Assembly (NCBI RefSeq): GCF_022012335.1
Contig: NZ_JAKLTO010000003.1
Span: forward strand, 124,001-188,000
Direction: 5' to 3'
From: Flavobacterium sp. SM15
GTDB taxonomy: Bacteria; Bacteroidota; Bacteroidia; Flavobacteriales; Flavobacteriaceae
Length of the DNA: 64,000 nucleotides
A program made the position numbers and the translations under genes. This document shows, in pieces, positions 60,145 through 63,554 of the stretch (the stretch's first letter is position 1; every line of letters begins with the position of its first letter). Under the pieces are notes generated by a model. It was not told the DNA's origin, searched no databases, and saw only the letters and a program-made list of their open reading frames with translations.

Positions 60145-60215
60145 AAACCTTTATTTTTCGCTAAGATACAAAAAAATACTATGCGTTCATATAAAAATCA
60201 ATTTGTTAAATAAAT

Positions 60216-60302
60216 GTTAATTTACAGTACTTTGTATTGCAAGGTATCTTCTTTTAGCCTTATCTTTGTATAAGAAATTAATGGCTAATCAATAGTATTA
60301 TA
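60216..60302 (+). repeat. Duplicated promoter-leader module, copy 1
   Basis: 87 bases that recur at 60819-60905 with 8 substitutions and no gap. Contains the -33/-7 elements and about 35 bases of leader (AAGAAATTAATGGCTAATCA, ATAGTATTATA). Lies 15 bases before the ATG at 60318. Confidence 0.9.
60237..60268 (+). promoter_or_regulatory. Promoter of the 150-aa secreted protein
   Basis: TTG 60237-60239, 21-nt spacer, TATCTTTG 60261-60268, exact consensus. Confidence 0.72.
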
Positions 60303-60317
60303 AAAATAAAAAACATC

Positions 60318-60770
60318 ATGAAAACATCAATCATTTATTTAGGTATCGCTTTACTAACATTTTCAAATGTTATTCCGGCATTAAGTCAAGAATCTTTTAT
60401 TAAAGGTGAAAGTTTGGCTCAAAAAGTAAGTTCAACGCAAAGCAAAAGCAGAAATGCTTCAGAAGAGGTTTCAATTAAAAGAAACAGCAATGCAGAGCAA
60501 AATGTTGTAAGTTTTGATCCGGAAGCAATCGCTGCTCCTGCTTATGAAAAAACCATAGAGGAAATCATTGCTGAAAACAATCTAATTACAGAAAGTTCTT
60601 TATTAGCTGAACTAAATGCCGATAAAAATCAAATCGAAGTTAAAATTGACGGAATTCCATCAAACTTTGAAAAAACAACAGAAGAAAGAATACTGGAGGA
60701 CAGCCAAATCATCGAAAGCCAACTTTCAGAATTAAATCAAATGGCAGTTGAAACCAAAACAAGGAAGTAA
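60318..60770 (+). CDS. Secreted charged helical protein, unknown function
   Basis: 150 residues with a signal peptide (MKTSIIYLGIALLTFSNVIPALSQ). The mature protein is Glu/Lys/Asn-rich and contains two related motifs, EKTIEEIIAENNLITESSLL and EKTTEERILEDSQIIESQLS, an internal duplication of about 60 residues. No membrane segment, no T9SS tail. Shares its promoter-leader with the DUF4870-PadR-PspC unit, which suggests a common envelope-related regulon. Family not recognised. Confidence 0.75.
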   Translation: MKTSIIYLGIALLTFSNVIPALSQESFIKGESLAQKVSSTQSKSRNASEEVSIKRNSNAEQNVVSFDPEAIAAPAYEKTIEEIIAENNLITESSLLAELNADKNQIEVKIDGIPSNFEKTTEERILEDSQIIESQLSELNQMAVETKTRK

Positions 60771-60818
60771 TATTTCTAAACATCTTATAAAGAACTAAAA
60801 CAGAAATGTTAAAAAAAA

Positions 60819-60905
60819 GTTAATTTCTAGTATTATGTATTACAAGGTATCTTCTTTTAGACTTATCTTTGTATAAGAAATTAATAGCTTATCAATAGTA
60901 TTATA
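60819..60905 (+). repeat. Duplicated promoter-leader module, copy 2
   Basis: Pairs with 60216-60302, same length, 79 of 87 bases identical by eye. It precedes the DUF4870 gene by 40 bases. Confidence 0.9.
60840..60871 (+). promoter_or_regulatory. Promoter of the DUF4870-PadR-PspC unit
   Basis: TTA (for TTG) 60840-60842, 21-nt spacer, TATCTTTG 60864-60871. The weaker -33 is one of the differences from copy 1. Confidence 0.68.
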
Positions 60906-60945
60906 ATAATATCGTCATTTCAATCATCAACCAAAAAACAAAACC

Positions 60946-61425
60946 ATGACAGCTTTAACCTTTAAAAACACAATGGCTACTTCAAGCGAAAGAAACACAG
61001 CAACACTGATTCACTTAAGCACTTTAAGCCAGTATTTTATTCCGTTTGGAAATTATTTCTTTCCGCTAATCATTTGGGCCTTCAAAAGAGACAAATCCGA
61101 ATTTGTGGATTACAACGGAAAACAAGCCATGAACTTTCAGCTTAGTATGTTGTTGTATTCATTCATTCTTTTGGTAATCGCAGTTCCTATTTTGCTTTAC
61201 ACGATCTTTAAAAATGTAAGTTTTTACGAAATGCAAAACGGAAACTTCGAACTGGATCAACTTTCAACAGGAAACATCACAGGAATTGTTGCTGTAGCTT
61301 TAATGGCTGCCTTTATCTTCTGTTCCTTAAAAGTAGTAGAGTTTTTTATGGTAATCTATGCCGCGGTTAAAAGCAGCAGCGGAGAAACCTTTAAATATCC
61401 ATTGAGTATTTCATTTTTAAAATAA
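60946..61425 (+). CDS. DUF4870 membrane protein
   Basis: 159 residues. LIHLSTLSQYFIPFGNYFFPLIIWAFKRDKSEFVDYNGKQAMNFQLS is the DUF4870 signature; hydrophobic segments are near 28-45, 68-90, 112-135, with a short final segment FFMVIYAAV. Four-helix inner-membrane protein, unknown function, often next to PspC genes. First gene of the operon. Confidence 0.9.
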   Translation: MTALTFKNTMATSSERNTATLIHLSTLSQYFIPFGNYFFPLIIWAFKRDKSEFVDYNGKQAMNFQLSMLLYSFILLVIAVPILLYTIFKNVSFYEMQNGNFELDQLSTGNITGIVAVALMAAFIFCSLKVVEFFMVIYAAVKSSSGETFKYPLSISFLK

Positions 61426-61462: not shown

Positions 61463-61498
61463 ATGAACAGTTTAAACCTTAAAAAAGAAATTCTATGA
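61463..61498 (+). CDS. Possible 11-codon leader ORF overlapping padR
   Basis: ATG 61463 opens MNSLNLKKEIL and stops at TGA 61496-61498; the stop overlaps the padR ATG as ATGA. It could couple padR translation. Too short to judge by coding bias. Confidence 0.4.
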   Translation: MNSLNLKKEIL

Positions 61499-61827
61499 AC
61501 ATTGAGAACACCAAAGCTCAGATGCGTAAAGGAGTTTTAGAGTTCTGTATCCTTTCGGTATTAAAAGAAAAAGATGCCTACACTTCAGAAATCCTAGACA
61601 CCTTGAAAAACGCTAAGTTATTAGTGGTTGAGGGAACCGTTTACCCCCTACTAACACGCTTAAAAAACGACGGATTACTCAACTATCGTTGGGAAGAATC
61701 CACATCGGGACCACCCAGAAAATATTACGGTTTAACCGATGAAGGACACGAATTTTTAAAAGAATTAGACGGAACCTGGAACGAATTAGCCGGAGCCGTT
61801 AACACAATAACCAGCCAAAACCAATAG
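61495..61827 (+). CDS. PadR-family transcriptional regulator
   Basis: 110 residues. Winged helix: KAQMRKGVLEFCILSVLKEKDAYTSEILDTL, VVEGTVYPLLTRLKNDGLLNYRWEESTSGPPRKYYGLTDEG, the exact PadR PF03551 pattern, with a short C-terminal dimer helix. The operon encodes its likely targets (DUF4870, PspC), so autoregulation at the duplicated leader is plausible. The PspC gene starts 2 nt after its stop. Confidence 0.95.
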   Translation: MNIENTKAQMRKGVLEFCILSVLKEKDAYTSEILDTLKNAKLLVVEGTVYPLLTRLKNDGLLNYRWEESTSGPPRKYYGLTDEGHEFLKELDGTWNELAGAVNTITSQNQ

Positions 61828-61829
61828 TC

Positions 61830-63554
61830 ATGAACAAAACAGTAAGCATAAATTTAGGAGGTCTTCCATTTAACATCGACGAAGACGCCTTTCAAAAACT
61901 GAGTCGTTATTTTGATGCGATAAAGAAATCTCTTGCCCCTGATGGTAGAGACGAAATCATAAGCGACATCGAGAGCCGAGTTGCAGAATTATTATCTGAA
62001 AAACTTAACAACGACAAACAAGTTGTAGGACTTACCGAAATTGACCAGGTTATTGCAGTAATGGGACAACCGGAAGATTACAGAATCGAAGAGGAAACCA
62101 CACAAAACACCTACACAACTTACAATCCGTCAGGGTCTAAAAAATTATACCGTGACAAAGAAAAAGGAATGTTAGGCGGTGTGGCAGCAGGTTTCGGTCA
62201 TTATTTAGGTTTTGACCCGCTTTGGATCCGTTTATTCTTGATTTTATTGGTTATTGCAGGATTTGGAACCGGTATTTTAGTGTACATTATCTTCTGGGTA
62301 TTGGTTCCCGAAGCTAAAACCACAGCAGAAAAACTGGAAATGACCGGCCAACCGATTACCATCTCAAATATCGAGAAAAAAGTAAAGGAAGGCTTTGCTG
62401 AAATTTCCGATACGATAAACAACATCGATCATCAGAAAATTGCGGATAACGCTAAAAGTGGTGCCCAAAAAATCGGAAGCTCGCTTGAGGAAGTTTTCAT
62501 GACCATTTTCCGTGTGATTGCTAAAGTAATTGGAGCGTTTATCGTGGTAATTTCAGCATCATCACTAATCGGAATCATTATTTTTTCTATCATGTTGATT
62601 TTTTCTTCAACTATGACTGATGCACCTTGGTTTAATTACATCAACGCCGGAAACTATACTGATATTCCAATGTGGTTGTTAGGAATCCTGACGTTATTTG
62701 CAATTGGTATCCCGTTCTTTTTCTTATTCTTATTAGGATTGAAATTATTGGTAAGCAATTTGAAATCAATCGGAAACTACGCTAAGTTTACTTTGTTAGG
62801 CGTTTGGTTGATTGCCGTTGCAGCGATGATTTACTACGGAATTCGTCAGGCAACTGAAGTTGGTTACGATGGTAAAGTGGTTAAAAAAGAGCAATTGATG
62901 TTATCTCCAAACGACACTTTACACATCAAATTCCGTTTCAACGATTATTTTTCTAAAACGGCTGATAGCGAGACCGATTTCCGTTTCACACAGGATTCTT
63001 TACAAAATGAAGTAATTTACTCCAACAATGTAGAACTTCACATTCTAAAAACTACGGAGCAGCCTTACCTTCAAATTGAAAAAACCGCAGAAGGAAAATC
63101 TTTGGCAGATGCACGAAAAAGAGCTGAGAAAATAAAATTCAGCTACACCATTGATCCAAACACGATTATTTTAGACAATTATCTTTTAACGGATATCGAA
63201 AGTAAATTCAGAAACCAGAAAGTAAAAGTATTCTTGTACCTAAATGAAGGAACGATCATCAACCCGGATGAGAACACTTCAAAATATTTAGACAACGATT
63301 ACTCTAACTATTACTTCTATTCTGACAGCAACCAAAACCTTTACAAACTTGAAAAAGAAGAGTTAAAGTGTTTAAACTGCCCTGAAGACGATGAAGACTG
63401 GAATCAAGAGGAGCCAGACAGTACAGCCACAAAAACCACTACAATAAAAATCAATGAAGATGGTTTGCAAATAAAGGAAAGTAAAAAAGTAACCAACAAA
63501 GAGATTAAAGACATTGATTACCAACAGGATAAAGTAATCATTACTACCAAATAA
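61830..63554 (+). CDS. PspC-domain membrane protein with HAAS-like N terminus
   Basis: 574 residues. Residues 1-90 (FQKLSRYFDAIKKSL...EIISDIESRVAELL...VMGQPEDY) look like the HAAS signalling domain, then a PspC domain (about 105-155: KKLYRDKEKGMLGGVAAGFGHYLG, PLWIRLFLILLVIAGFGTGILVYIIFWVLVPEA). Three more membrane segments at about 230-345 are followed by a ~220-residue external beta-rich region with Asp/Lys-rich ends. Probably senses or buffers envelope stress together with PadR. Confidence 0.92.
   Translation: MNKTVSINLGGLPFNIDEDAFQKLSRYFDAIKKSLAPDGRDEIISDIESRVAELLSEKLNNDKQVVGLTEIDQVIAVMGQPEDYRIEEETTQNTYTTYNPSGSKKLYRDKEKGMLGGVAAGFGHYLGFDPLWIRLFLILLVIAGFGTGILVYIIFWVLVPEAKTTAEKLEMTGQPITISNIEKKVKEGFAEISDTINNIDHQKIADNAKSGAQKIGSSLEEVFMTIFRVIAKVIGAFIVVISASSLIGIIIFSIMLIFSSTMTDAPWFNYINAGNYTDIPMWLLGILTLFAIGIPFFFLFLLGLKLLVSNLKSIGNYAKFTLLGVWLIAVAAMIYYGIRQATEVGYDGKVVKKEQLMLSPNDTLHIKFRFNDYFSKTADSETDFRFTQDSLQNEVIYSNNVELHILKTTEQPYLQIEKTAEGKSLADARKRAEKIKFSYTIDPNTIILDNYLLTDIESKFRNQKVKVFLYLNEGTIINPDENTSKYLDNDYSNYYFYSDSNQNLYKLEKEELKCLNCPEDDEDWNQEEPDSTATKTTTIKINEDGLQIKESKKVTNKEIKDIDYQQDKVIITTK

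Follow-up and report, generated by a model that had tools for sequence, protein, structure and literature searches.

Why does a 64,000-nucleotide stretch of Flavobacterium sp. SM15 (contig NZ_JAKLTO010000003.1, positions 124,001 to 188,000; here called the window, with coordinates counted from its first base) carry nearly the same leader twice, once before a gene for a small secreted protein, SEC, and once before an operon encoding a DUF4870 membrane protein, a PadR regulator and a PspC-type membrane protein? A sequence-only reading of the window had pointed out two alike stretches of equal length, 60216-60302 and 60819-60905, and our comparison agrees, with matches at 79 of 87 positions. That reading had gone on to suggest an operator or RNA element common to both leaders, with PadR as the candidate reader. 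The sequence gives directly the module described below, its link to padR, its copies elsewhere and its lack of RNA structure. Our best explanation, with a probability of about 0.75, is that both copies are one promoter-operator module, predicted to be read by PadR and to serve PadR's own operon, SEC and targets distant from padR.

Anatomy and uniqueness of the duplicated leader

A repeat search of the window extended the pair to 105 bp, 60204-60308 for copy 1 and 60807-60911 for copy 2, with 90% identity. Ungapped matching of copy 1 along the window found nothing comparable: the next-best placement agreed at 42 of 87 positions on the plus strand (background mean 24.4, standard deviation 4.2) and at 45 of 87 on the minus strand. 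The 2.99-Mb genome held no third full-length copy, the third-best match having E = 0.043 over 25 bases. Looking for more copies in the genome and in relatives, as the sequence-only reading had suggested, we obtained two matches to a sequence-only model (R1) in the own genome, both of them the window copies, and R1 matches at E ≤ 0.01 in 195 of 199 Flavobacterium genomes.

Both copies share the layout GTTAA-N6-GTTAA-N6-palindrome (TACTWTG-N5-CAWRRTA)-14 nt-TAHHTTTG, in which the palindrome covers the −33 region. Pattern matching placed the GTTAA-N6-GTTAA direct repeat on the plus strand at 60205..60220 in copy 1 and at 60808..60823 in copy 2, and these are its only occurrences in the window, where 0.40 would be expected by chance and 10 of 100 shuffles reach two. 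The palindrome-like operator, located on the same strand by alignments and pattern, reads TACTTTG-TATTG-CAAGGTA before SEC (copy 1, 60228..60246) and TATTATG-TATTA-CAAGGTA before the padR operon (copy 2, 60831..60849), the latter being the more degenerate. The −7 element TATCTTTG follows on the plus strand at 60261..60268 and 60864..60871. Passages of PMC6847099 number the Flavobacterium −7 element from T at −12 to G at −5, from which we infer transcription starts near 60273 and 60876; the palindrome centre would then lie at about −36.

Of the −33 and −7 elements that the sequence-only reading had assigned to both leaders, the −7 elements could be located, but a separate −33 TTTG was not obvious, the nearest TTG in copy 1 (60237-60239) lying within the palindrome. 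Its alternative of an operator or an RNA element also stood in part: an operator-like palindrome is present in both copies, whereas the RNA element found no support from Rfam or folding. A scan for promoters of the E. coli type returned 8 sites against 4.1 expected and was set aside, as the model is unsuited to the phylum Bacteroidota.

The module at padR and at other genes

The module is a constant companion of padR. Among the best 80 of 568 matches to the PadR protein (the named loci, among them L115, truncated at the edge of its contig, and L100, a shorter match), profile search placed it before DUF4870, or directly before padR where no DUF4870 matched, in all 80. Least variable in the alignments were the two GTTAA boxes, both arms of the palindrome and the −7 box, and the repeat-6-repeat-6-palindrome spacing was exact in 84 of 86 leaders, with the remaining two outside the pattern. 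Conversely, padR was present at each of the 30 best R1-match loci, and none of 43 control loci taken from the own genome yielded a profile match below E 0.15. The sequence-only reading had held that a shared leader should be kept in relatives with both genes, and it is: SEC stands beside padR in four named loci, and these are the same four that have a second module copy, each time before SEC (4/4).

Across the order the palindrome persists. Our order-level sample comprised 196 genomes, 103 of them with a match to the window PadR or a paralogue, and upstream DNA was read for 50 of the 103 (30 loci and 20 stretches). The palindrome pattern lay within 1300 nt of padR in 17/18 genomes of the genus and 30/32 outside it (47/50 in all), as against shuffle means of 0.05 and 0.08 and no hit to the backward pattern (0/32); the three misses, L240, L253 and L269, show a degenerate version by eye. 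Outside the genus the consensus is TAGTACTTTGTATTGCATAGTACC, and order-wide it is AGTACTTTG-TATTG-CATAGTACC. The GTTAA repeats have a narrower range: elsewhere in the family, outside Flavobacterium, 10 of 11 sites have them (L244-L252 and L254, with L255 the exception), and beyond the family none of the 19 sites read does, though the palindrome stays at padR there. Because the repeats are confined to roughly the family level while the palindrome is wider, the palindrome is the old part and the repeats a later addition.

Within Flavobacterium the module also occurs away from padR. A search for SEC homologues in the 199 genus genomes gave 23 matches in 18 genomes, and 19 of the 23 loci carry the module. 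Four of these are at padR, and in the other 15 the roughly 1.5 kb of flank fetched contains no match to DUF4870 or PadR. Three of those 15 (L149, L151, L152), with SEC matches limited to the first 29 residues, correspond to the ankyrin genes of L203, L211 and L212. At L146, L147 and L157 an ankyrin gene lies between the module and SEC, which are several hundred bases apart (seen in L201, L224 and L197, respectively). The padR and SEC sites can be distant even on one complete chromosome, such as G118, where they lie at 1,645,404 and 2,716,871.

A second sample came from 40 genomes picked for at least two R1 matches, in which 38 stretches were fetched at forward matches (E up to about 0.0024) that were not taken as the padR copy; the stretches were drawn from among the R1 matches listed, and several presumed padR copies were not individually confirmed. 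One stretch (L199) proved to be a padR locus. In 35 of the remaining 37 a gene of one of three kinds follows downstream at a distance of at most 300 nt: 12 stretches have a SEC homologue, 20 a secreted ankyrin protein (about 125 residues) and 3 an OMP_b-brl_3 outer-membrane protein. The other two were counted as misses, L220 for a weak match with no target gene and L222 for a contig edge. Many ankyrin-gene sites retain the repeats and palindrome with a diverged promoter, and all three OMP_b-brl_3 sites (L207, L218, L219) lack the GTTAA repeats. The predicted co-regulation extends beyond the window locus, and the module's presence ahead of genes for secreted and membrane proteins in many species of Flavobacterium probably points to a small network of envelope-stress genes.

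Outside the genus we scanned with an operator model (R2) trained on 30 outside-genus padR sites, mostly from the genomes then scanned, so that padR sites there match by construction, and read 13 stretches with secondary palindromes. Three of these palindromes precede OMP_b-brl_3-like proteins (L286, L292, L293; Pfam run on the first two). Two from a single genus (L284, L285; Pfam run on L284) directly precede the ATPase gene of an ABC transporter, with a 410-aa protein, probably the permease, encoded next; one precedes a beta-lactamase-family hydrolase (L287), and five precede small proteins with signal-like N-termini (L283, L288-L291). In L290 and L291, again from one genus, the small proteins are in tandem and their signal-like N-termini are of the MKKLILLLIALTTFMNVSYASFP type. 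The palindrome of L294 precedes a membrane-like protein and that of L295 no gene; both look like other kinds of site.

Related palindromes were also seen at two further places in the own genome. In L130 (C46:58500-62500), two genes, one of them encoding an HTH_34 winged-helix regulator, lie between TACTTTG-N5-CAAAGTA palindromes at about 1533-1551 and 2485-2503, and one of these palindromes directly precedes the first start codon; the gene pair has the look of an autoregulated operon of its own that uses a related half-site. In L131 (C34:58000-60500), a similar palindrome, AACTTTGAAATACAAAGTA, lies at about 1085-1103, shortly before a gene with an MPAB_Lcp_cat domain (MpaB-like).

Genes, proposed circuit and competing explanations

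The genes behind the two copies are those that the sequence-only reading had named, a secreted protein on one side and DUF4870-PadR-PspC on the other, in agreement with Pfam and with the signal-peptide-like N-terminus of SEC. All lie on the plus strand. SEC (60318..60770) encodes 150 residues and matches no Pfam family above cut-off, the best being SurA_N_3 at E 0.049. The second copy is followed by the DUF4870 membrane protein (60946..61425; PF09685, 109.2 bits, cut-off 25), the 110-residue PadR regulator (61495..61827; PF03551, 70.5 bits, cut-off 27) and a PspC/LiaI-LiaF-TM/Toastrack protein (61830..63554; 72.8, 138.1 and 142.7 bits), whose three domains score above cut-off in the window protein and in all eight relatives scanned. 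Downstream of the PspC/Toastrack gene, on the same strand (L134, own genome C23:187500-192000, which extends past the window end), come genes for an M23 peptidase-family protein and for two DUF2807 proteins (head GIN domain), which are probably the rest of the padR operon. Elsewhere in the own genome (L155, C45, 1501-2463), a SEC paralogue is followed by a small secreted ankyrin protein, a pair that has the module elsewhere in the genus; at L155 no module was found by profile search, nor by eye in the preceding sequence.

The window PadR has its domain match at residues 19-90. Its nearest solved chain is PDB 5h20_A (E 1.4e-40 over 108 residues), which we take to be the Bacteroides fragilis protein BF2549. 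F. cauense is a near relative of the host, and its PadR is 99% identical to that of the window over residues 1-109. Members of the PadR-2 subfamily have about 100 residues and a winged helix with no separate C-terminal domain, according to passages of PMC6457526. PF03551 score and size of the window PadR both agree with membership of this subfamily, and Tyr29 and Tyr50 appear, by eye on the unaligned translation, to occupy the expected positions of the two PadR-2 signature tyrosines, which contact operator DNA.

Together these observations support a predicted autoregulated PadR operon with targets in trans, within the published HAAS-PadR-PspC-Toastrack arrangement. A PadR dimer would bind the palindrome over the −33 region of the TAHHTTTG promoter and would repress both its own operon (DUF4870, padR, the HAAS/PspC/Toastrack gene and genes beyond) and SEC. 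The membrane HAAS-PspC-Toastrack protein may sense envelope trouble, upon which PadR would be released and both promoters would fire together. Elsewhere in the genus, the module would drive SEC homologues, small secreted ankyrin proteins and OMP_b-brl_3 proteins distant from padR. A second factor probably binds the GTTAA-N6-GTTAA repeat, which has an 11-bp spacing and a constant register relative to the palindrome. To judge from the sequence, the original interpretation seems right about the operator and probably right about PadR as its reader, but it is incomplete, since the module would serve genes throughout the genus and the copies at this locus have been homogenised.

A bolder version of this circuit, which we put forward tentatively and on the doubtful side of even, would place the two GTTAA boxes and the PadR palindrome on one face of the helix, in 11-bp phase, and have them read by PadR together with the second factor. 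The module would then define an envelope-stress regulon of Flavobacterium and near genera, with the SEC family, secreted ankyrin and OMP_b-brl_3 proteins as effectors, wired to the membrane HAAS-PspC-Toastrack sensor without a two-component system.

Several results weigh against a PadR-read module with distant targets. HAAS is sub-threshold in the window protein (23.4 bits, cut-off 27), and among the eight relatives it is above cut-off in two (L050, L054), below in two (L067, L106) and unreported in four. With only two module copies in the own genome, any wider regulon there would need weaker sites; scans of this genome for more targets gave, beyond both copies, only the variant palindromes at the HTH_34 locus and the MpaB-like gene and weak sites. 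The R2 model has eight matches in the own genome, and the padR-side palindrome of the window is missing from them. The module is also missing at the SEC paralogues L153-L156, second paralogues of the window's clade, and the profile matches at ankyrin genes are weak, with 15 of 23 at E above 1e-8. The half-site, moreover, is not private to PadR, since related palindromes occur at the HTH_34 locus and the MpaB-like gene. Finally, in a set of 22 genomes with no close PadR match (20 without a match, G219 and G285 with weak ones; several are small or incomplete), the palindrome was found at E < 1e-3 in two, G232 and G199, the latter at a contig end.

The last two of these results would fit a regulator other than PadR, either a GTTAA-binding factor or a winged-helix protein (of the HTH_34 type, for example), for which padR would be merely one target. 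The near-invariant GTTAA spacing in the leaders favours the same view, but the repeats are absent from every site read beyond the family and from one within its other genera while the palindrome is still at padR, and they are missing from the three Flavobacterium OMP_b-brl_3 sites as well. We consider a different reader unlikely.

Slightly less probable again is recent tandem duplication as the whole story, with the second promoter a passive copy whose shared regulation was not selected for. Linked copies are indeed far more alike than unlinked ones: with SEC next to padR (four genomes examined), identity between the two copies is 0.90-0.96 in the core and 0.70-0.85 in the tail, as against averages of 0.755 and 0.361 for eight pairs of padR and unlinked SEC copies of the same genome. 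In a tree of the module, built on about 100 bases with modest supports, unlinked SEC and ankyrin copies group apart, and those SEC copies that are linked fall among the padR copies of their own clade. The exceptional likeness of the window copies is, on this comparison of sequences, in part the apparent result of local duplication or homogenisation in the species' clade. We dropped purely local duplication as the sole explanation, however, because the module also stands at SEC homologues away from padR; ankyrin and OMP genes distant from padR have it too, and both copies were retained in all four named loci with SEC beside padR.

An RNA element in the transcribed leader, riboswitch-like or bound by a protein and common to both genes, is very improbable, and we rejected this reading: likeness downstream of the −7 box, as first noted, and good conservation in the genus of the bases directly after it (ATAAGAAATTA) speak for it, but the single Rfam match to the leaders is sub-threshold and on the minus strand (E 0.19, 18.1 bits against 33), neither leader is predicted to fold more stably than shuffled sequence (z −0.02 and 0.57), and tail positions 79-105 average 36% identity between padR and unlinked copies in the same eight pairs, where the palindrome ahead of the −7 box is retained. 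With this divergence of the tail, the idea that the roughly 35 bases of transcribed leader are the conserved part finds no support; conservation resides mainly in the module.

Relation to known PadR systems

The kind of system seen here is already known; its operator, composite module and target list were not found in the literature we searched. Among open-access full texts (titles, abstract starts and passages), none described an operator, a composite module, a target list or a PadR regulon for these bacteria, and none gave an operator or target description for PDB 5h20_A. In Zobellia, a padR gene, ZGAL_1768, is reported to rise on algal polysaccharides. The words 'PadR', 'PspC' and 'ankyrin' did not occur in the main text of the F. 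psychrophilum transcriptome paper.

Three systems offer partial parallels, each drawn here from passages of the papers cited. LftR of Listeria monocytogenes (PMC6457526) is, like the window protein, a PadR-2 protein of about 110 residues, and its binding site, a partial palindrome, lies ahead of the lftR gene itself; the operator is bound with a dissociation constant of 6.2 nM, and autoregulation is presumed by the authors. LftR differs in its link to a multidrug transporter, where the window PadR goes with a PspC/Toastrack protein. BC4206-BC4207 of Bacillus cereus (PMC2774856) pairs padR with a membrane-protein gene in an operon induced by the bacteriocin enterocin AS-48; that paper defined neither an operator nor further targets for it. 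LltR of L. monocytogenes (Hauf et al. 2019, PMC6624303) is a PadR that represses its own operon with DUF1700 membrane and DUF4097 proteins. In the mutant liaI and liaH rise, so LltR acts elsewhere in the genome, directly or not. LltR belongs to a Firmicute system and is likened to ours by gene content.

The nearest relative is the HAAS-PadR arrangement proposed in 2024 as an alternative to two-component systems (PMC11237479). The window operon agrees with it in domain make-up, HAAS being a sub-threshold match, and the passages of that paper give no operator or target list; what the present analysis adds is a conserved operator within a composite promoter module, together with predicted targets distant from padR. 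The PadR/PspC/Toastrack system has hitherto rested on gene neighbourhoods in those passages; the module would provide a concrete operator and target list for it, and two uncharacterised secreted protein families would gain their first functional context.
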